Shown here in pieces: positions 12,692-53,545 of a stretch of DNA of 64,000 bases. Origin of the DNA: Candidatus Gastranaerophilales bacterium (lineage in GTDB: Bacteria > Cyanobacteriota > Vampirovibrionia > Gastranaerophilales > Gastranaerophilaceae); contig CALVHB010000046.1 of the NCBI GenBank assembly GCA_944327275.1, forward strand, positions 1 to 64,000. Reading direction: 5' to 3'. How positions within the stretch are numbered: the first letter of the stretch is position 1; each line of letters opens with the position of its first letter. Position numbers and translations under genes: made by a program. The notes beneath the pieces were generated by a model. It was not told where the DNA came from and made no database searches. It was given only the letters and a program-made list of their open reading frames with translations.

Positions 12692-13015
12692 ATGACTTTT
12701 TTAGCTATCGATGCACAGAAAAATTTATTTACGTTGCAAAAGAGCCAATTGCAATTTGAACAGACTTTGGTAATGAGTAGAGCAAACTATATTACCAAGC
12801 AAATGGGAATCAGAGCCGAACAATTAGGAGATAATGGTGATATTGATAATGACTCAACTTATATCCAATTGCAACAGGAAGAGTCCTACCTTGAGACTCG
12901 ACAGGATTCTTTAGATTCTCAAATAACGTTGATAGAAAACGAAATATCAAGTTTGAAAAACCTTGTTAATAACAATATCAAGACATCTTGTAGCTTGAAC
13001 TTGATTGGTGGATAA
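12692..13015 (+). CDS. Small coiled-coil protein, possible mini version of the MG-AA-QAR family
   Basis: This 107-residue protein has an excellent SD (aaggagag). The N-terminal helix (AIDAQKNLFTLQKSQLQFEQ) and a C-terminal heptad helix (SLDSQITLIENEISSLKNLV) resemble in pattern the conserved ends of the large proteins at 26746, 46373 and 51597, but the variable centre is absent. It has no signal peptide. The relation is judged by pattern and spacing, not by strong identity. A possible promoter (TTGACT 12634, TATATG 12655) has a short 15-base spacer. A long hairpin follows the stop. Confidence 0.6.
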   Translation: MTFLAIDAQKNLFTLQKSQLQFEQTLVMSRANYITKQMGIRAEQLGDNGDIDNDSTYIQLQQEESYLETRQDSLDSQITLIENEISSLKNLVNNNIKTSCSLNLIGG

Positions 13016-23797: not shown

Positions 23798-26614
23798 ATG
23801 AGTAACGAAACAAGTACAAAAACTGAGTATAAAGATACTCTTAATTTGCCTCAAACGACTTTAGCGATGAGAGCAAATGCTACTGTGAGAGAACTTGAAA
23901 TCCAAAAGTTTTGGCAGGAAAATGATATTTATAATAAGATTATTGATAACCGTGATAAAGCAAATAAATTTATTTTGCACGACGGACCTCCATATTTAAG
24001 TTCTGAAAAAATTCACGTTGGAACTGCTCTTAATAAAATTTTAAAAGATATTTTATTGAAATATAAAGCTCAATCCGGTTTTTATACTCCTTATGTTCCT
24101 GGGTATGACGGTCATGGGCTTCCTATTGAAAATGCTGTTGTCAAAAATATTAAAGGTGGTAGAAGTGCATTAACTCCTTATGAATTAAGACAGAAATGCA
24201 GAGAGTTTGCTCATAAAAACTTGAAAGGACAAGAGTCTGAGTTCAAACGTCTTGGAGTTCTTGGGAATTGGGAAAATCCTTAGTTGACAATTAATCCTGA
24301 ATTTGAAGCAGAACAAGTTAGAGTGTTTGGTGAGATGTATAAGAAGGGTTATGTTGAAAAAGGGCTAAAACCTGTGTATTGGTGTGCATCTTGTGAAACT
24401 GCTCTTGCAGAAGCAGAAGTTGAATACGCTGATCATACATCAACTTCAATATATGTAAGATTTAAGTTTGATGAAGAGTCTACTGAAAAAATTAATAAAT
24501 TAGTTCCAGCAGCTGCCGGCAAAGATATTTATGCAGTAATTTGGACTACAACTCCTTGGACAATTCCTTCAAATATGGCTATAAGTATGCATCCTAAATT
24601 TGAATATACTTTCTTTGAAAAAGATGGTGATGTATATGTTGCAGCTCAAGAATTGTTAGGAAGTTTCCTTGCAGATGTTGAATGGCAAGAAAGTGATATA
24701 AATGTTATAGGGTCTTGTATAGGACAAGATTTAGAGTTGTTAAATACAAAACATCCTCTTGTTGATAGAAAATCCCCTATAATTCTTGGAGAACACGTAA
24801 CATTAGATGCCGGTACAGGTTCTGTTCATACAGCGCCGGGTCACGGTCTTGAAGACTATGAAGTTGGTTGTAAGTACGGTATAGAAGTATTTTCACCATT
24901 GGATAGTAAAGGTGTTTGGACTGAAGCTGTTAAAGATGAAGATTTAGTTGGAGTACCTTATTATAAAGGTAATTCTATTGTTATCGAAAAACTTAAAAAT
25001 TGTGGAGCCTTGCTTGCTCAACAAGATATAAATCACAGTTATCCTCATTGTTGGAGATGTAAAAATCCTGTAATTTATAGAGCAACACCTCAATGGTTTG
25101 TTAAGGTTGATAAATTCAGAGAGCAAACTTTGGAGGAAATCAAAAAAGTAAAATGGATTCCATCAAGCGGAGAAGCCAGAATCTCAAACATGGTTGCAGG
25201 ACGTACTGATTGGTGTATTTCTCGTCAACGTGCTTGGGGGGTTCCTATCCCTGTATTTTACTGTGAGGATTGTGGTGAAGTAATTGTAACTGACGAAACA
25301 ATTGAAAATGTTGCTCAGATATTTGAAAAAGAAAGTTCTGATGCTTGGGTTAAATATTCTGAAGAAGACTTACTTCCAAAAGGATTCAAGTGTCCTAAGT
25401 GCGGAAAAACTCATTTCAAAAAAGAAAATGATATCATGGATGTATGGTTTGATTCAGGTATCACTTGGAGAGCAGTTGTTAACAAACGTAGTGAAGAGCT
25501 TGGTACAACTCCTGTTGAAATGTATCTTGAAGGTTCAGACCAGCATAGAGGTTGGTTCCAGTCATCACTTTTAACTTCCGTTGCAACTCAGGGAATTGCC
25601 CCTTACAAATCAGTTTTAACTCACGGATTTGTATTTGGTGAAGATGGAAGAAAAATGTCAAAATCTTTAGGTAATTATATTAGACCTGATGAGATTATAA
25701 AAACTTATGGTGCTGACATTTTAAGATTATGGGCTGCATCAGTTGATTATAGAAATGATACAAAAATCGGAAATAACATAATTAAACAGCTTGCTGAAAT
25801 TTTCAAAAAAACAAGAAATACTTCAAGATTTTTGGTTGGAAACTTGTTTGATTTTGACCCAAAAACTGATTATGTAGAATATTCTGATTTGAAGCCAATA
25901 GATAAATTTGCATTACATAAGTTGAATCAACTTATTGTAAGTGTTACAGAAGCTTTTGATAATTATGAATTCTATAAATATTTCCAACAATTGCAAAATT
26001 TTGCAGCTGTTGACTTAAGTTCGTTCTATCTAGATATTGTAAAAGATAGATTGTACACTGCAGGAAAGAAATCACTTTCTCGTAGAGCTTGTCAAACAGT
26101 ACTTTTTGAAATATTGCAGACTCTTGTAAGAATGCTTGTTCCGGTAATGCCTCACCAAGCTGAGGATATTTGGATGAGTGTTCCTGATGCTCAAAAAGAC
26201 GGATTGACTAGTATTCTTCTTTCAAATTGGCCAAAAGCTAGACCTGAGTGGAATAATTCAGATTTAGAAGATGATTTCTCAAAAATATTAAAAGCTAGAG
26301 AAGTTGTTACAAGAGCAATTGAGCCGTTGAGAGCTGATAAAAAAGTTGGTAGTTCATTAGAGGTGGCAGTGTATGTGAAAGCTGATGACAATGCAGTATT
26401 AAAGGCTAATGAGGATGAACTATGCAATATCTTTATTACATCTCAGGCTTATGTAACTGATGAAAAACCGCAGGGAGTTCTAAATGAATACTCAGAAGAC
26501 GGTTATACTGTTTGGGTTACAAAGGCTGAGGGCGAAAAATGTGAAAGATGCTGGAAATACAGAAAATTAAATTCCGGCGGTATCTGTGAAGAATGTGCTG
26601 AAGCTATTAAATAG
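23798..26614 (+). pseudogene. ileS: Isoleucine--tRNA ligase gene interrupted by one in-frame TAG
   Basis: Two frames, 23798-24283 (161 residues) and 24284-26614 (776 residues), are in the same phase and separated only by TAG at 24281-24283. The TAG sits where IleRS normally has the Tyr of 'NPYLT'. All other parts are intact: editing domain (TTPWTIPSN, GTGSVHTAPGHG), RTDWCISRQRAWG, KMSKS about residue 620, and the C-terminal Cys4 zinc site (CERCWKY ... CEEC). The HIGH motif is HVGT (73-76). An intact IleRS is essential, so this is a sequence error, a true nonsense allele with another copy elsewhere, or a read-through or split gene. The only restart codon at the break is TTG 24284 with no clear SD. 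Confidence 0.8.
24281..24283 (+). other. In-frame amber codon inside ileS
   Basis: Context is AAT CCT TAG TTG ACA, where homologues encode Asn-Pro-Tyr-Leu-Thr. One base change from TAT or TAC gives TAG. TAG ends other genes here (fusA, uppS, ligA, folD), so general reassignment is unlikely. Confidence 0.9.
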
Positions 26615-26646: not shown

Positions 26647-26691
26647 ATGTAACAAAATGTTAATAAAATCTTATACATTTTTAAAGATTTC

Positions 26692-26745
26692 TTCAAATAG
26701 TTCCGTAGTCATGATTACAGGTACTATTTGAAAGGAAAATCTATT
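26692..26745 (+). promoter_or_regulatory. Structured mRNA leader shared with another family member
   Basis: A perfect 10-bp inverted repeat, TTCAAATAGT/ACTATTTGAA (26692-26701 and 26723-26732), abuts the SD aaagga (26731-26736). The blocks CAAATA-N-TTCCGTAGT and TACTA...TTTGAAAGGAAAATCT recur almost unchanged before the gene that starts at 53432 (minus). This suggests a common post-transcriptional control. Confidence 0.6.
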
Positions 26746-28344
26746 ATGGGAATGGCAGCATCTCAAGCCAGATTATTAAGTATAACTGCAAGATTGACCA
26801 ATAATGAAAATACAGGTCAAAGCATTTCCTATTCAAAACAAAGACTTGCAGATCAAACTCAACAAATTACAAATGAATATAATGAGGCTTTAGATGCAAC
26901 TAAACTTACTGTATTGACAGGGTTTAATGGAGCTGAAGCAAATTATACTGATATTTCATACAATCTTATGACTGGTCTGCAAATGGCAGAAAATGTTAAA
27001 CAGTACGTTGTTACTGATACTAAAGGTAGAATTTTAGTAAATGAAAATATTGCAGATGCATATGAAAAATCAAGAGGTAACTATAATCAATTCTTAGCAA
27101 ATTTAGGTTATTCTCAAGCGGATATATCTGTTCAAAAAACATATACTGATATTAATGACAGAACAGAAGAACAAGCTAAAGCTGAACAAAAGATTCATGA
27201 AGCTTGGGATAAATATTTTGCAACAATTGGTGTAAATCTTGGTGATAATGAGCATGATTTTGGGTTTAGCTGGACAGAGACAGTTGTTCCTGGCGGTGAT
27301 GTTAATAATCAAAATGATTATGCTATTGGTCAAGGTTATGCAGGATATGTAAGAACTGATGAAAACGGTGATTATGTAGATAAAGATGGAAATCCAGCAT
27401 ATTTTACTAATGAACAAGGTGAATTTGTTGATAAAGACGGTAATGTTATTGCAAAAGATGAATACAGTGATGATGTAAAAAATAATGCCGATAACGTTCA
27501 AAAATATGTGGATGAAAATGGAGATATTATCGATTATGACGTAGATACTGATGATGATGGTGTCATGGATGCTTATTCAAATGATGTAACTACAAATGAA
27601 GATAATACATTAAGATATTTTGATAAAAATGGTGATTTAATTGATTATGATGATTATTCTGAAGATGCAAAGTCAAAAAGAATAGTTGATTCTTCAAAAA
27701 TAGTTTATGACCCTATTAATTATGAAGGAACTACAGATGAACAGCGTGAATTATTTGATTACGCTATGGCATTGACTGAAGCTTATCTAAGAGTTAATAA
27801 CGATGGAACTACTCAGCAGTATCATCTTGAATATAATCAAGGTTTGTTAGCATCAACAACAGATCCTGAAAATGTAAGTACGATCAACTATTATAATAAT
27901 ATATTTGATAAAATGCAATCAAGCGGATATTTTACATATACTAATACTCCCGCAAAAGCTGATGATACTCATATCTATGCAGGTATTGGTACAGGGACAG
28001 CTGGTAATGTTCAAAAATCTCCATTAGAAGACAATGCGGTATTTGAACAAGCTCTAAGAGATGGAACTTTGAGATTAGAATACTATTCTACAACTGATAA
28101 ATCATTCAAATCTACTACAATATCTGAAGATTCTTGTATTCAGGAAGTAGCTGATGAAAGAGCTATTGCAAAAGCTGAATCAAAATATAATCAAGACATG
28201 ACTGATTTAGAAAATAAAGATAAAAAATTAGACTTAGAATTGAAAAAATTAGATACTGAACATAGTGCGTTGCAGACAGAATATGATTCTGTAAAGAATG
28301 TTGTTGATAAAAACGTGGAGGCGTCTTTTAAAACATTCGGATAA
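26746..28344 (+). CDS. MG-AA-QAR family protein with Asp-rich repeats (unknown function)
   Basis: This 532-residue protein begins MGMAASQARLLSITARLTN and ends in a heptad helix (LDLELKKLDTEHSALQTEYD) and SFKTFG. Both ends are shared with the proteins at 46373 and 51597. The centre holds Asp/Asn/Gly-rich repeats (residues about 201-309: DENGDYVDKDGN, DENGDIIDYD, DTDDDGVMDAYSND, DKNGDLIDYD) like calcium-binding thrombospondin type 3 or EF-loop repeats. It has no signal peptide. Paired terminal helices around a variable centre recall flagellin-like or type III exported filament subunits, but I see no sequence match. ATG 26746 was chosen for its SD; the TTG at 26728 is inside the leader hairpin. 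Confidence 0.8.
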   Translation: MGMAASQARLLSITARLTNNENTGQSISYSKQRLADQTQQITNEYNEALDATKLTVLTGFNGAEANYTDISYNLMTGLQMAENVKQYVVTDTKGRILVNENIADAYEKSRGNYNQFLANLGYSQADISVQKTYTDINDRTEEQAKAEQKIHEAWDKYFATIGVNLGDNEHDFGFSWTETVVPGGDVNNQNDYAIGQGYAGYVRTDENGDYVDKDGNPAYFTNEQGEFVDKDGNVIAKDEYSDDVKNNADNVQKYVDENGDIIDYDVDTDDDGVMDAYSNDVTTNEDNTLRYFDKNGDLIDYDDYSEDAKSKRIVDSSKIVYDPINYEGTTDEQRELFDYAMALTEAYLRVNNDGTTQQYHLEYNQGLLASTTDPENVSTINYYNNIFDKMQSSGYFTYTNTPAKADDTHIYAGIGTGTAGNVQKSPLEDNAVFEQALRDGTLRLEYYSTTDKSFKSTTISEDSCIQEVADERAIAKAESKYNQDMTDLENKDKKLDLELKKLDTEHSALQTEYDSVKNVVDKNVEASFKTFG

Positions 28345-46372: not shown

Positions 46373-47674
46373 TTAGCCGAAAGTTTTAAAAGTTGATTCA
46401 GTATTCTTTTCGATAACTTTTTGTACTGCATCCATTTCAGTTGAAATTGCATCTTGTTCAGTATCTAGTTGTTTTAATCTCAATTCTAAGTTTTTATCTT
46501 GAGACTGTATAATTTCTATTTTTGCATTTATTTGATCAATCGCTTGGTCATATTCATATTTATCGTATTCGTATTGGTTCATAGCATCTTTGTATGCATC
46601 TTGATCTGTAATAGTGTTTGTAGTTAATGCATATGTTGTTTCAGATGTGCCATCTCCGTTTGGTATTGTGATATTTATGTAACGGCCGGAGCTGTCTTTT
46701 TCAATTTTGCAACCATCAACGGATTTTACTTCTTCTGTTTTATTTTCACTGCCGATTGTATAGCAGTTAATATTTGACTGAGAATTTCCGTTGTCGTCAT
46801 AGTTTGCTTTTTCTAAATCTGATTTTTTGTAGAAATATGGAACATATTCATCTGAAGATGAATTTTTTATGTATCTTACCATATATTCTCCGGGACCGTA
46901 TTTTTCTTCAAGGAGAGCAAGATATTCTTGTTCTTCTTTTTGTAAGTCTTTTAATTGACTTTCAGTCAAAGATCCGATGTATTTGTCATCCCCGGTGTAT
47001 ACCATTGAACCTTTAACCGGTTCTTCATCAACTGCTTGGCTGCTCCACATACCGTTAGTGTTAACTCTTTCAGCCCATTCTGCAGGTTCTCCTTCCATTT
47101 CAGGATTTCTCCATAAGTAATGAACTTTATTGAATTCATCGGTATATTGATACCATTCACCATCAGTTTGAGTAGGATCAGGTGATTCAATAGCTTCTAA
47201 AACTTGTCCTTTGTATGAATACTTTTTACCGTTTTCGTTTTCTTGGAATTCGAAATCATTAGGATCTATACTTCCAAGAGTTCTTAATTCTGTAGAACCA
47301 ACCATGTATTTATCATCATCTTTGTCGTCAGTTCCATTAGTATTTCTGTTTACAATGCTTGTAGATGCTGCTACTACAGAAAAATCATCTTTCCATTGTC
47401 TGATATAGCTTACAGAATATGTACCGTCATTTTGAGCAATCATTGCTGTAATTTGGTTTGTTAATGCTCCATCTTCGAAAGTGTACACAGTTTTTGTGTA
47501 ATCATCGACAGACGGAGGAACCGGTACTGACATACCCAACAAATCGTTGTAGTAGTTAGCAGACTGGTTTGACAATGTTGTTCTTTGTTGGTTAATTTGC
47601 TGACCTTCAAATTCAACATTGGTTTTTCTGGCTGTCAAGCCTAAAAATCTAGCTTGTGATGCTGCCATTCCCAT
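46373..47674 (-). CDS. MG-AA-QAR family protein (unknown function)
   Basis: This 433-residue protein begins MGMAASQARFLGLTARKTN and ends with a heptad helix (NLELRLKQLDTEQDAISTEM) and SFKTFG-like TFKTFG. The centre (residues about 60-340) is unlike that of the other copies: polar, beta-rich, many Tyr/Asp/Glu, with repeated 'YTGDDKYIGSL'-type segments. No signal peptide. It lies 90 bases after an operon of unknown membrane proteins and ends at its own terminator. Structural or exported filament-like role is only an inference. Confidence 0.78.
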   Translation of the reverse strand: MGMAASQARFLGLTARKTNVEFEGQQINQQRTTLSNQSANYYNDLLGMSVPVPPSVDDYTKTVYTFEDGALTNQITAMIAQNDGTYSVSYIRQWKDDFSVVAASTSIVNRNTNGTDDKDDDKYMVGSTELRTLGSIDPNDFEFQENENGKKYSYKGQVLEAIESPDPTQTDGEWYQYTDEFNKVHYLWRNPEMEGEPAEWAERVNTNGMWSSQAVDEEPVKGSMVYTGDDKYIGSLTESQLKDLQKEEQEYLALLEEKYGPGEYMVRYIKNSSSDEYVPYFYKKSDLEKANYDDNGNSQSNINCYTIGSENKTEEVKSVDGCKIEKDSSGRYINITIPNGDGTSETTYALTTNTITDQDAYKDAMNQYEYDKYEYDQAIDQINAKIEIIQSQDKNLELRLKQLDTEQDAISTEMDAVQKVIEKNTESTFKTFG

Positions 47675-47763
47675 TGCTATCGATCTTCCTTTCTTTTACT
47701 TAGTACTTATATTTCTTTTATCGACACATGAGAATCAAAACTTTAATCATGTTTTAAATATTG

Positions 47764-48264
47764 TTAAGAATTTGTAACATTAGGACTTTTTATCGAGCCT
47801 CTAAAACGGTCTGAAAGGTAGGACAGTATTGCCCCTCCAATTTCTTCATTCGGATCAAAGTTTGAAGATTGTGGGTGTAAAGAATTTTGAATTAACATTT
47901 TAACAAGAGGTCCGAATGCGTCTGGAACTTGTGTTTTTCTGTAAATTCCCGCAAGAAATGTCTGGATATTTGGGGATGTAGTATTGTTAAATCTCGATAA
48001 AACCGGATACATTTTGTCTATTCCTTTAACTCCCGCATCAGCCATTCTGTCAATAATATATAGTGTTTCTGTGATTTGCGCTTCATTGTTAGAGTGTGAG
48101 AGAATATCTGCAAGGTAAGGTAGGGATGCTTCTTTTTGAGATACAAAACAATCTACTTTATTTTGATCCACAAGAGTATAGTTTCTCCCACCTACCGGTA
48201 ACGAACAAGGTGTGTATGATATGTTTCTAATATTGTATGGTTGTACATATATTGAATTGTTCAT
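47764..48264 (-). CDS. Small helical (HEAT-like) protein of unknown function
   Basis: This 166-residue protein has repeated helix pairs (about residues 45-150) reminiscent of HEAT/ARM repeats: EASLPYLADILSHSNNEAQI, YIIDRMADAGVKGIDKMYPV, TFLAGIYRKTQVPDAFGPLV. These usually bind other proteins. The N-terminal part is Asn/Tyr-rich. SD-like agga precedes ATG 48264, 18 bases after the stop of the membrane-protein gene, so it is the third gene of a three-gene operon starting at 50461. Confidence 0.65.
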   Translation of the reverse strand: MNNSIYVQPYNIRNISYTPCSLPVGGRNYTLVDQNKVDCFVSQKEASLPYLADILSHSNNEAQITETLYIIDRMADAGVKGIDKMYPVLSRFNNTTSPNIQTFLAGIYRKTQVPDAFGPLVKMLIQNSLHPQSSNFDPNEEIGGAILSYLSDRFRGSIKSPNVTNS

Positions 48265-48282
48265 TTATTAATGTCCTAGTTT

Positions 48283-49773
48283 TTATGAGTAAACAAATGG
48301 AGGGCCGTTTTTGATTTCGAGTAATATGTTGTCTGCAATTACTTTAAGTTCTTCTTTTGGTTTTCCATTATCTACTTGTTTGTAAAATTCATCAACTAAT
48401 GGTTGAATTGCTGCATCTTTTTTTGATTTAAAGTTTCTCAATTCTGTGGATACAAGTCTTTGTTGCAATTCAACTTCAGTTTGAGCGTTTAGTTTTTTTA
48501 CTTGAACTTCTTTTATTGCTTCTCCAGCGAGTTTACCTCCATAACTAAGAGCAGAAAGAGCCGTAATACCGAAGAATAATTGTTTAAATTGTTTGTTATC
48601 CGTATCCAGTAACCAATTATAGAAAAATGCTCTGTAATCATCTACGTGTGAATAAAATGTCGGTTTTGGAGTTCCGTCGCCGCCGATGGTTTCATTAACT
48701 TTTGTAGTTGATGTTTGTGATTTTTTTACAAGTTTGTTAGTAAAATCGTCAACTTCATTTTTATCCCATTTTAGATTTTTTAGGAACTCCCTTATTTTTT
48801 GAGGAGTAGCATCTATTGATTGAAAATACGCTTCAAGAAGTTTTTTGTCATTTTCTTTTGTAGAATTTGATGATGTTTTTACCAGATTTTCAATTAAATT
48901 TTCTCTATTTTTAACGTAATTTTCCAAAAGTTTTTTACTTTTAGTAAGGTTTTTTAAGGATAGATATCCTAGGCCGATAATTGCTCCTATGGTTCCTGCT
49001 CCAAGTAGGAAATAATTTATATTATTTTTATTATCTTTGTTTGGGTAATATTTGTTATAGTCTCCTGTAAAATAAAGATGTTTTCCAAAGTTTGGCAGAA
49101 TTTTGTTGTTATCATCTGAAAGATATCTACTGAATTCAATCATTTTTTTTGAAAGCATACTTCTTGTAATTTGAATTTTTCCTGCAAAAGATTGGGTCTC
49201 TATGTCTATCAATTTCTCTTGCATATCTTTTTGAATGTCTGCTTCTCGTTTTTTGACCCAAACATCTTTAAAACCGTCAAAGAATGTTTTACCCATAAAT
49301 CCCATTGCGCTGAGAGTAAGTACACCGATTCCGGCTAAAATTGTTTTCCTTGTAGGACTTGATACCATTTGATAAAGAGCTTGGAATTTTTCATCATTTA
49401 GGGCAACGTTTCTTGTAAGCTCAGGGAGTCTTTTTTCGTTGGATATATTTAAGTTAATTCTTGTATTACGTTTTATAAATGCTGACAGTAGAGCGATTGT
49501 TCCCATTACGCCAACTGCGATAGCACTTATGGGTAGAATGCTTTTTGAGGATGTAGAGTCTTTTTCATAAAGTTTTTTTGGCATTTGGGAATCTTCTGAT
49601 ATTACCAGCGTATCGCATGTATCATCCAGATTAATGTTGCAATTTGGGCAATCTTTAATGAAGCTGTTTACAAGGACGCCTTCTTTTGTTTCGGTATTTG
49701 CTCTTTTTTGAGTAGTTGTCAGATTCCTTTGTTGTCTTAGAGTTTCGCTGTCTCGCAGAGGACTAATAGTCAT
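48283..49773 (-). CDS. Multi-pass membrane protein of unknown function
   Basis: This 496-residue protein has four hydrophobic segments at about residues 79-101, 143-166, 250-270 and 402-422. Long charged, coiled-coil-prone stretches separate them (for example KNLTKSKKLLENYVKNRENL). A CPNC pair lies near residue 42. The two halves look similarly arranged (helix pair, coil), hinting at an old duplication. It overlaps the upstream gene by 11 bases. No family recognised; it could scaffold an envelope complex together with its neighbours. Confidence 0.68.
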   Translation of the reverse strand: MTISPLRDSETLRQQRNLTTTQKRANTETKEGVLVNSFIKDCPNCNINLDDTCDTLVISEDSQMPKKLYEKDSTSSKSILPISAIAVGVMGTIALLSAFIKRNTRINLNISNEKRLPELTRNVALNDEKFQALYQMVSSPTRKTILAGIGVLTLSAMGFMGKTFFDGFKDVWVKKREADIQKDMQEKLIDIETQSFAGKIQITRSMLSKKMIEFSRYLSDDNNKILPNFGKHLYFTGDYNKYYPNKDNKNNINYFLLGAGTIGAIIGLGYLSLKNLTKSKKLLENYVKNRENLIENLVKTSSNSTKENDKKLLEAYFQSIDATPQKIREFLKNLKWDKNEVDDFTNKLVKKSQTSTTKVNETIGGDGTPKPTFYSHVDDYRAFFYNWLLDTDNKQFKQLFFGITALSALSYGGKLAGEAIKEVQVKKLNAQTEVELQQRLVSTELRNFKSKKDAAIQPLVDEFYKQVDNGKPKEELKVIADNILLEIKNGPPFVYS

Positions 49774-50461
49774 TTTCTTCTAAATCCTTTTCATCTTGAA
49801 TAAGCTTTTTGTATAGATCGTGAATGAAAGTTTTTAATTCAAAAGCTTTTTTAGTTTCATCAATTTGTTTGTCGTTGTTATCAGCATCTAATGGTTGGAA
49901 TATTGAGAAAATGGATTTTACTTTCTTTTTTAAATCTTTGAAAGCTTCTGATATTTTCTTTTCAATAGATGCTTTTAGTTCTCCAACCATTGCTGTGAGT
50001 TTGTCAGATATGTCTGCCAATTTTTGTTGAATTGTCTGTATTGCGTTAGAGATAGTTGTCGGAATATTTGCAATTGTTCTTACAAGTCCGCCTATTAATG
50101 TATTGAGTACAAAATTCACAGGCTTAGCAATTATTGGAGGAGTGTTGTTTGAAAAAAACTGAGCAATTGTTGCCAATTTTTGACTTGCATTCATTAGAGA
50201 ATTTTGGAACGCCTGTACATTTTGTGCAAAATTTTGGGCATCTTGAGCTCTTTGCATTTTTGCATTTTGTTGAGCCTTTAAAAAGGCACCTATTGCAGCA
50301 CATTCATTCCAACTCATTTCACCCGGTCTTGCGGAAAAGTCAGCTTTTTTTGCTCCGCCTCCTCCTCCCATTCCGTTACATATCGGGCATGCTCCGAGAG
50401 GTAATCCGTGCGGGCAAGTTCCAACTCTTGCACTTTTTGTTTGTACTGCTCCAAGTGACAT
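49763..50461 (-). CDS. Zinc-knuckle-like Cys/His protein with long helices (unknown function)
   Basis: This 232-residue protein opens with a Cys/His cluster, C16-P-H18 ... C25-P-I-C28 (CPHGLPLGACPIC), followed by GGGGG, which could bind zinc. Long amphipathic helices follow (residues about 65-180, e.g. AFLKAQQNAKMQRAQDAQNF and IQQKLADISDKLTAMVGELK), and one hydrophobic stretch (PVNFVLNTLIGGLVRTIANI) may touch the membrane. It is the first gene of the operon. Its SD (agagga) is in the 3' arm of a hairpin directly before the ATG. Confidence 0.7.
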   Translation of the reverse strand: MSLGAVQTKSARVGTCPHGLPLGACPICNGMGGGGGAKKADFSARPGEMSWNECAAIGAFLKAQQNAKMQRAQDAQNFAQNVQAFQNSLMNASQKLATIAQFFSNNTPPIIAKPVNFVLNTLIGGLVRTIANIPTTISNAIQTIQQKLADISDKLTAMVGELKASIEKKISEAFKDLKKKVKSIFSIFQPLDADNNDKQIDETKKAFELKTFIHDLYKKLIQDEKDLEENDY

Positions 50462-51598: not shown

Positions 51599-53432
51599 AT
51601 GCGTTATATCGTTTAAATGATTTTTCAATATTTTTTGATATCGTATTCTTTACTGTATCATATTCGGTTGTTAGTGAAGAAATTTCAGTATCCAGATTTT
51701 TCATTTTTAGGTCTAAAGTTTCTTCTTTAGCATTTAACTTAGCTTTTTCTGTATTATATTTAGCTTCTGCCTGAGCAATAGCTGTTTCATCTGCTACTTC
51801 TTTTATATAAGAGTCTGTAGCATAGTTGCCCTGATAATAATATCCGTCATCGCTGACTTTGGATATGAATAACATTCCACTTTGCAGCATTTGTTGCAGA
51901 TATTCTTTATCGTCTATTTGATTATTTTCAGTCCAGCCGTTAGCGCAAATTTGGTTGAATAATGCATCGTAGAATTGGGCTTGACCTAAATCATCACTTG
52001 CAACATTTCCACAGTTGAAAGTGTATTGGAATAACATATCGTCAGTCACGAATCTGTTTACAATAGGTTTGTTATCTAGGTTGCTTGCACATGCTCCAGT
52101 GTTTGCGTAGTACTTGTCTAGTCCATTTTCATCAGTTTTTGATACTCCATTCATATAATCTGCGAAGAATGTAAGGAAAGCTCTTGCTAGGTTATTTAAG
52201 TTAATAGCGGCAATACTACGATCTTGTCCGTCTTTATGTCCCCCACGTTTCTTGTCCCCAACGGCGTATACAAAACCAACGTAATTATCACTTTGATCTT
52301 GGATTTTGTTTTGTGCATTCTGCCAGTTATCCTCATCATTCATTTTCTTTTCATAAACTATCGCATTACCAACAGGTTCTAGATAGTCTTTTGTTGCAGA
52401 GTACATATCGTCACTATCGTGGTTCCATTCTGTGTATTCATCCAAATGTTTTGCTTCGTCAGAACCTTGTGCAGGATTATATTGAAGCCACTGTTGTCTC
52501 CAATCTTCATATGATCCTTCAAATTTACTTGATTGGTTGTATTCTGGAGGAGTTACTACAAGATTCATTGTTTGTTGATAAGCATATTCAAGAGCTTTTC
52601 CTGTAACACCATCACCCAAATCAAGTACTTCTGAGAATGCATTATACATTTGGTCAATAAATGTTTCTAAGTATTGTTGCATCATTGCTACACCTATTAC
52701 AGGAGATTGTTCACCTTTTACACCTACGTATGTAAGTGTACAATCTTTTTCACCTGTTAATAAGTCTGATAATGTAAAACTTTCAGAACCAGATGTTATA
52801 CTAACTTGAGCTTTTTCAACATCCCCAGGCTCATTTGCAACATCTCTTGATAGATTTAAAGCTTCAGCATCAAATGTGAAATTACCTGTTGTATTTTTAT
52901 CCAACATATCACACAAGTCACTAATACTTCCGGTTTCAGTTACTACTCCAACGGTAGTGCCGCCGCCAAGACCTGCACCTTGATTGTAAGGTAAGCTTGC
53001 AATTGAATTAGCTAATTTTTCAGTAATTACACCTGCACTTGCAAGTCCTGCTATAAATGCATTACGCATAGATTCAGATGGTAGAGTTCCCAAGCCTTCT
53101 TGAGGTATACCTGCAGCTCTTGCTGCTGCAGCATATTTACTGTTTAAAGTTACTCTGCCTGAACTGTCAGTAACTGTTATAGGCATATAATCATTTAATG
53201 TTGAAGGACTCATCAATAGACCATAAGTTAATGGAGTTGAAGTATCGCCTGTTCCGTAATAATCATATACCAATTTTGTTTGATCTAATGAATTTTGGTA
53301 TTCATTTGAAAGGTCAGCAAGTTCCCTTGACAATGCTATCTTTTGATGTGATAAACGCATTGACTGGAATTCACAATCAGCTTTTCTGCTTGTGATACTT
53401 AATAATCTAGCTTGTCCTGCTGCTAATCCCAT
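51597..53432 (-). CDS. MG-AA-QAR family protein, largest copy (unknown function)
   Basis: This 611-residue protein starts MGLAAGQARLLSITSRKADC and ends with the heptad helix LDLKMKNLDTEISSLTTEYD and SFKRYNA. After the N-terminal helix it shares a second block with the 26746 protein: 'KL...Y.L(M)...VTD..GR...N' then an Ala/Gly segment (KYAAAARAAGIPQEG). The rest of the centre is unique, with Trp/Tyr/Gln-rich stretches. A VADE(T/R)AIA motif before the last helix is also shared with 26746. No signal peptide. Its leader contains the TTCCGTAGT element found before 26746. Confidence 0.8.
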   Translation of the reverse strand: MGLAAGQARLLSITSRKADCEFQSMRLSHQKIALSRELADLSNEYQNSLDQTKLVYDYYGTGDTSTPLTYGLLMSPSTLNDYMPITVTDSSGRVTLNSKYAAAARAAGIPQEGLGTLPSESMRNAFIAGLASAGVITEKLANSIASLPYNQGAGLGGGTTVGVVTETGSISDLCDMLDKNTTGNFTFDAEALNLSRDVANEPGDVEKAQVSITSGSESFTLSDLLTGEKDCTLTYVGVKGEQSPVIGVAMMQQYLETFIDQMYNAFSEVLDLGDGVTGKALEYAYQQTMNLVVTPPEYNQSSKFEGSYEDWRQQWLQYNPAQGSDEAKHLDEYTEWNHDSDDMYSATKDYLEPVGNAIVYEKKMNDEDNWQNAQNKIQDQSDNYVGFVYAVGDKKRGGHKDGQDRSIAAINLNNLARAFLTFFADYMNGVSKTDENGLDKYYANTGACASNLDNKPIVNRFVTDDMLFQYTFNCGNVASDDLGQAQFYDALFNQICANGWTENNQIDDKEYLQQMLQSGMLFISKVSDDGYYYQGNYATDSYIKEVADETAIAQAEAKYNTEKAKLNAKEETLDLKMKNLDTEISSLTTEYDTVKNTISKNIEKSFKRYNA

Positions 53433-53545
53433 TTTTTAAGATTTTCCTTTCAAACTAGTAACGTTCATGTCTTACTACGGAATTATTTGTTATTTTCTTT
53501 AAAAAAATATGAGATCAATGTTACAATTGTTAACATATTAACAGT
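53433..53545 (-). promoter_or_regulatory. Shared leader element and palindrome before the 53432 gene
   Basis: On the minus strand CAAATAATTCCGTAGT (around 53490-53475) and TACTAGTTTGAAAGGAAAAT (around 53461-53442) match the leader at 26696-26739. A palindrome TGTTAA-cata-TTAACA (53528-53543) lies upstream where a promoter would be. No clear -35/-10 pair was fixed. Confidence 0.5.

Follow-up and report, generated by a model that had tools for sequence, protein, structure and literature searches.

The 64,000-nucleotide stretch analysed here (the window) covers positions 1 to 64,000 of contig CALVHB010000046.1 from the Candidatus Gastranaerophilales assembly GCA_944327275.1 and encodes three large proteins, called 26746, 46373 and 51597 after their coordinates, which belong to one protein family with conserved helical ends and unrelated centres (Table 1). 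An initial annotation had pointed to these three genes, and open reading frames (ORFs) were read at all three places. Its proposal that the ends are shared and the centres unrelated was confirmed as well. The motif common to the three N-termini is MG(M/L)AA(S/G)QAR(L/F)L..T.R and that common to the C-termini is LDTE...(A/S)(L/I).TE.D.V......N.E.(S/T)FK. Blastp of 26746 against 51597 aligned the first ~100 residues (35% identity) and the last ~112 residues (44% identity) and nothing between these ends. A profile of 109-aa hairpin-only relatives, built from other genomes with the window sequences excluded, picked exactly the three proteins from 499 stop-to-stop ORFs (E 1e-26, 2e-19 and 7e-18) and had no match among shuffled window ORFs. 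Judged by these sequence comparisons, the shared ends are not a product of chance. The next-ranking ORF is a tentative fourth member, for which no sigma-28-like promoter was found; this gene, the hairpin-only members, the promoters and the copy number described below go beyond the initial annotation.

The start of the 26746 protein was placed at the ATG and not at the TTG at 26728 chosen by the ORF caller, since a sigma-28-like promoter lies 38 bp before the ATG and the TTG adds residues absent from relatives. The three sequences, judged by reading only, have no hydrophobic N-terminal stretch, which agrees with the view of the initial annotation that none has a signal peptide. No Pfam or NCBIfam family was found above cut-off for the large window proteins. 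None of their centres matched a known family, and hence none matched a cytosolic enzyme of the kind that the initial annotation had named as evidence to the contrary. The centre of the 26746 protein contains, at residues ~205–320, repeated aspartate-rich (Y/F)(V/F)DK(D/N)G(N/D)-like units resembling a metal-binding or adhesin repeat.

Table 1. Family genes, their conserved regions and candidate promoters in the window
Feature	Position	Strand	Basis
Family member, B-type, 532 aa (ATG start 26746)	26746..28344	+	similarity of ends, profile match
Conserved N-terminal helix region of 26746 protein, residues 1-50	26746..26895	+	end alignment, profile
Conserved C-terminal helix region of 26746 protein, residues 450-532	28093..28341	+	end alignment, profile
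Sigma-28 (FliA)-like promoter TAAAGATT-N-TTCCGTA, 38 bp before ATG of 26746 gene	26682..26707	+	motif match
Family member, A-type, 433 aa	46373..47674	-	profile match, AlphaFold model
N-terminal helix of 46373 protein, residues 1-46	47537..47674	-	AlphaFold helix 2-46, pLDDT 83-97
C-terminal helix of 46373 protein, residues 358-432	46379..46603	-	AlphaFold, pLDDT mostly 92-98, lower at last residues
Beta-rich variable centre of 46373 protein, residues 47-357	46604..47536	-	AlphaFold, blastp
Sigma-28-like promoter TAAAGTTT-N12-GTCGATAA, ~45 bp before ATG of 46373 gene	47720..47745	-	motif match
Family member, B-type, 611 aa	51597..53432	-	profile match
Conserved N-terminal helix region of 51597 protein, residues 1-50	53283..53432	-	end alignment, profile
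Conserved C-terminal helix region of 51597 protein, residues 530-611	51600..51845	-	end alignment, profile
Sigma-28-like promoter TAAAGAAA-N-TTCCGTA, 43 bp before ATG of 51597 gene	53476..53501	-	motif match
Tentative fourth member, divergent 107-aa hairpin-only protein	12692..13015	+	profile E 1.2e-5; coiled-coil composition could inflate E

Full copies in the window's genome (G000; 1.62 Mb, 56 contigs) number seven: the three of the window and a single one on each of the contigs C40, C54, C25 and C27 (end-profile E 1e-20 to 1e-46). A centre-less member of 108 aa lies at C27:11442. Searching the whole genome with the 26746 protein returned the ends of the seven full copies and fragments at contig ends. 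Six contig ends (C2, C3, C38, C49, C52 and C53) fall within family genes and carry partial copies; near-identical stretches of the copies probably broke the assembly there, and the true copy number is thus probably above seven. There was no evidence of gene conversion between full copies, whose ends share ~68–90% DNA identity over short stretches. The initial annotation had advised searching related genomes with a profile of the ends, and a survey of 117 genomes of the class found 7–17 family matches in each of the 38 genomes of the window's taxonomic family (f1). Families f3, f8 and f9 had 1–7 matches per genome, and the remaining families had none apart from one weak match. A scan of public genome contigs retrieved 528 relatives; among the best 80, all those with informative names (beyond 'bacterium' or 'uncultured bacterium') were Gastranaerophilales (or Galligastranaerophilus), Vampirovibrionales/Vampirovibrio, Melainabacteria or 'Cyanobacteria bacterium' metagenome-assembled genomes. 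A plasmid collection gave no match for the family.

The A1 matches in f3, f8 and f9 (Vampirovibrionales) sit in frames of 75–147 aa, and the proteins that were read are mostly 109 aa long and align without gaps as helix, DPESP loop and helix; the hairpin-only examples include Vampirovibrio chlorellavorus (L105, L106, L115). Two Gastranaerophilales bins encode versions of 117 and 125 aa with the extra residues at the loop. In Vampirovibrionales (L100, L103) the genes run [hairpin]-(hairpin)-K. The two intermediate bins (L113, L114) have [117-125 aa]-K-s-[hairpin], and other Gastranaerophilales show [large A]-(large A)-K-s-[hairpin], with s or the hairpin missing in some cases. This gene order makes the orthology of the large A-type proteins to the hairpin clear, and the large and hairpin-only proteins are homologous at both ends, across the whole hairpin. 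The 109-aa hairpin kept in Vampirovibrionales is the ancestral form of the family. Because of the 117- and 125-aa intermediates and the conserved cassette, the large A-type, the subfamily to which the 46373 protein belongs and which occupies the cassette slot of the ancestral hairpin, is most simply explained by a centre having been inserted at the loop. A further expansion is the B-type (26746, 51597 and the copies on C25, C40 and C54).

Protein K of this cassette (265–300 aa, starting MSYKNDSY...) is highly conserved, adjoins family genes at 45 loci (for example L006:9159-9977 and L100:6935-7804) and is 42–57% identical to its Vampirovibrionales version. It matched no Pfam family above cut-off. 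Its glycine-rich hydrophobic middle and C-terminal coil give it a layout that resembles that of a translocator. Between the genes for K and the hairpin lies that for a small conserved protein, s (90–96 aa; L113:7690-7974 and 23 further loci), and in the window's genome a sigma-28-like motif precedes s (L006:10005).

AlphaFold predicts the 109-aa Vampirovibrionales member as a two-helix hairpin (helices 3–47 and 53–108, pLDDT 88), which Foldseek superposes on antiparallel coiled coils at 1.1–1.9 Å; the best look-alike, with a non-significant E of 0.05, is a type III translocator coiled coil. The 433-aa window protein is predicted as a helix (2–46), a beta-rich centre and a second helix (358–432), with pLDDT 85. 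Its eight best matches in the Protein Data Bank (PDB) are all flagellar-filament entries (E 6e-4 to 0.06), and Campylobacter hook-filament junction-cap entries follow lower in the list with non-significant E values. As comparisons of a predicted model, the filament matches support the view that the family works like flagellin, not that it belongs with it.

Late flagellar genes, including those of the filament, are classically under sigma-28 control. The window holds four matches to TAAAGWWWN{10,13}YCGWW against 1.2 expected, and three of them sit 38–45 bp before the three family genes. A sigma-28-like motif also precedes the copies on C40, C54 and C25 and the fragments on C49, C52 and C53, and none was found at the C27 copy. 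In the loci compared between genomes, a FliA-type promoter (TAAAGTTT-N11/12-GCCGAT) lies before 31 of 80 large copies, mostly 32–69 bp ahead, versus 11 of 585 other genes of the same loci (p = 1e-22, a nominal value as the loci are related). All these promoters are motif matches, as distinct from mapped transcript starts. The motif was also seen ahead of the gene that immediately precedes the C40 copy (L003:7545, +), which encodes a protein of 178 aa and is a possible further member of the regulon.

Of the surveyed genomes, 80 have the export-gate protein FHIPEP (FlhA/SctV), namely every family-positive one (57) and 23 that lack the family; the family thus occurs in 57 of 80 FlhA-positive and 0 of 37 FlhA-negative genomes (Fisher 6e-15, a value inflated by shared descent). 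In a tree of 20 FlhA proteins, the one full FlhA of the window's genome grouped with the second ('b') copies of f3, f8 and f9 (support 100/99), to which it is 62–65% identical, as against 35–39% identity to the flagellar ('a') copies of the same families. Both types occur in family f4; f5 and f6 have single full copies, which fall on the b side. The tree carries a long-branch warning, and its deep joins are less sure than the clade of f1 and the b copies, a clade for which the identities are independent support. A full-length FlhA copy is found in 37 of the 38 f1 genomes. The gate scores 703 bits with the FlhA model versus 585 bits with that of SctV.

Around the b genes lie FliE, a FliF-sized FliF, protein X, FliH and FlhA, and elsewhere in the window's genome the rod genes FlgB, FlgC, FlgF-like and FlgG-like lie within a few kb of the gene for a FliA/WhiG sigma factor, which scores above its cut-offs. 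Among the components of this set, referred to here as system b, FliE and FlgB score over their cut-offs and FlhA, FliF and FlgC below equivalog cut-offs. The FlgF/FlgG-like proteins have 233–237 aa, and the f1 rod-domain matches, among those listed, are in frames of up to 164 aa. The genes fliP, fliQ, fliR, flhB and fliI are present according to a published account (PMC3787301). Matches to Flagellin_N and to FliG_C come from one set of 27 genomes, which have a-type flagella (FliG_C in one copy each), and searches with these two models found flagellin and the FliG rotor in 0 of 38 f1 genomes. FlgE_D2 is uninformative as a hook test, being absent even from flagellated relatives. Protein X (334–398 aa; L096:2703-3704, L050:14232-15248, L057:17599-18792) sits between fliF and fliH, at the flagellar fliG position, and had no family match. 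A stand-alone cytoplasmic half of FlhA, without the membrane part and 26–29% identical to b-type FlhA, was also noted (L043:5898-7373, - strand; G000:C25:5931-6965), and almost all f1 genomes have a short FHIPEP frame of the same size among their listed matches; the half-protein is perhaps a second substrate-docking ring.

An 'incomplete flagellum' has been reported for these bacteria (PMC4040986, PMC3787301). In f1 it is a distinct second system and not the remnant of a swimming flagellum, because the retained FlhA is of the b type, which groups apart from the flagellar copies. With FlhA, FliE, FliF and rod proteins, system b resembles the bacterial flagellum, but in f1 it lacks the FliG rotor and flagellin, and a machine without these should secrete or display, not swim. 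The filament-less flagellar basal bodies of Buchnera (PMC8109811) are comparable in that basal-body and export genes are kept in a reduced set. The present case differs in that relatives have, alongside a true flagellum, a second FlhA lineage that evolved separately, and in that the system is accompanied by its own multi-copy protein family.

The initial annotation had likened the three proteins to flagellin, hook or type III export proteins. The plan stood up: helical ends, a beta-rich centre, the hairpin model, no signal peptide and the links to flagellar-type export and sigma-28-type promoters all agree with it, and with flagellin (FliC; PF00669/PF00700) the family also shares its several paralogues. 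Kinship did not, since Pfam Flagellin_N/C matched neither the large proteins nor the hairpins, and the hairpin profile showed no relation to two flagellins of a relative (probability 0.2%). Their end motifs and the ~109-aa hairpin core differ from those of flagellin, and by sequence the family members are not flagellins. The injectisome needle and filament proteins (SctF, EspA type) likewise have a short helix-loop-helix core tied to a type III machine; however, no needle family (SctF) was among the Pfam families shown at E up to 5, the gate is closer to FlhA than to SctV and the rod proteins are of the flagellar type. Several other identities were tried and rejected. Pfam, NCBIfam and PHROGs matches to the large proteins and hairpins were chance or coiled-coil only, and the hairpin profile hit only coiled coils among PDB sequences. 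Profile comparison gave no relation of the hairpin to FliE, and one to K was dismissed (K C-terminal coil, E 0.008, probability 5%). An N-terminal 'FxGN' motif as export signal was not enriched (9 of 204 proteins versus ~7 expected).

The suspicion of type III export thus gains support from the co-occurrence with FlhA, the b-type FlhA system and the FliA-type promoters before most copies in the window's genome. At a probability of roughly 0.58, we read the family as late-class export substrates of system b, which most likely assembles them as subunits into a surface appendage; as the best overall reading, they would be flagellin-like, type III-exported appendage subunits of a machine that derives from the flagellum and does not rotate. 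The short N-terminal MG(M/L)AASQAR helix would enter the FlhA/FliPQR gate, and outside the cell the two terminal helices would pack together, giving the hairpin known from the ancestral 109-residue form. These hairpins may stack as a helical shaft on the FliE-FlgB-FlgC-FlgF-FlgG rod, displaying outward the inserted centre, which would diversify fast, and K might serve as tip or translocator.

Several observations weigh against this proposal. The FlhA association is structured by clade, so that its p-value overstates independence, and f4, f5 and f6 carry related b-type FlhA with no family member; the family is therefore not an obligatory part of such systems, and other shafts or none may exist there. 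Family copies lie dispersed through the genome and not in the export operon, and some hairpin genes of Vampirovibrionales lie near flagellar genes, where the ordinary flagellum could export the hairpins. Sequence comparison detected no relation of the family to flagellin, to FliE or to any axial protein in Pfam, and the family proteins hold 1–6 cysteines each, unlike typical flagellins. Foldseek found no PDB match to the 109-aa model at E ≤ 0.001. The 433-aa model reaches TM-scores of only 0.10–0.17 with flagellins (rmsd 23–35 Å); the order of elements agrees and the rigid shape differs, and the likeness is, at the level of predicted models, one of architecture and not of a superposable fold.

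The dispersal of the genes, the huge diversity of the centres and the copy number would also suit secreted adhesins or effectors whose ends are an export signal plus a chaperone-binding or retention coil, with the 109-aa hairpins (and K) forming needle and tip. The separate, conserved hairpin-only gene in the same cassette and the translocator-like layout of K point the same way. We consider this unlikely, if a serious contender, as the end homology spans the whole hairpin, which exceeds what an export signal needs, and the place of the hairpin gene in the cassette is taken by A-type large genes. The terminal-helix plan fits hook-associated proteins too, and the junction-cap entries in the Foldseek list, for all their non-significant E values, recall cap, junction or tip proteins (analogues of FliD/FlgK/FlgL or the injectisome tip) present in few copies on an appendage of other material. 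Seven or more full paralogues in one genome, most with sigma-28-like promoters, exceed the need for caps, and no other candidate shaft protein is known, which makes such a role improbable.

Two further explanations do without type III export. If, as published, the flagellar genes were what is left of a decaying flagellum, and the family had nothing to do with export, one would not expect the retained full-length FlhA to be that of the second system, FliA and the sigma-28-like promoters to be kept, or the family to expand where the flagellum is gone; we regard this as very improbable. Scarcely credible is the surface layer or internal scaffold that the initial annotation had also suggested: the abundant coiled coil and the lack of a visible signal peptide are compatible with it, but surface-layer proteins usually carry a Sec signal, of which no N-terminal stretch was seen, and the promoters and the FlhA link would stay unexplained.

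Two other features of the window were noted. A single in-frame TAG at 24281-24283 interrupts a class I tRNA synthetase gene, probably ileS (23798-26614, +). The gene is an essential one, and the TAG is likely to be an error in the sequence or a mutation of very recent date. A three-gene run directly upstream of 46373 (47764-50461, -) has a weak EzrA-like coil match only and was rejected as a partner set, having no relatives near the copies read from named genomes. Rfam gave no match in the window.

The kind of protein, type III-exported and of flagellin-like plan, is known, but to our knowledge neither the protein family nor its origin from a hairpin nor the second system has been described; titles and abstracts on type III secretion in Gastranaerophilales, Melainabacteria and Vampirovibrionia, as far as they were covered, contained no earlier description. 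Non-photosynthetic relatives of cyanobacteria are common in animal guts. A retained second export machine with a large number of fast-diversifying, probable surface proteins would, if true, explain the repeatedly reported 'incomplete flagella', and it would be an uncommon example of a secretion system that derives from the flagellum and has evolved a shaft of its own through domain insertion into a simple hairpin. More tentatively, and with more doubt than confidence, one may think of a third class of appendages built by type III export, next to the flagellum and the injectisome: a device for secretion or display that derives from the flagellum but does not rotate, with a shaft of unrelated hairpins and a translocator-like K tip. 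Vampirovibrio is an algal predator, and since it has the ancestral hairpins, its attack spike is a candidate for such a device, of which the gut Gastranaerophilales would use a diversified display version. Its attack has been attributed to a type IV system (PMC4451040); the hairpin-bearing machine would provide a testable candidate for the attack device of Vampirovibrio.
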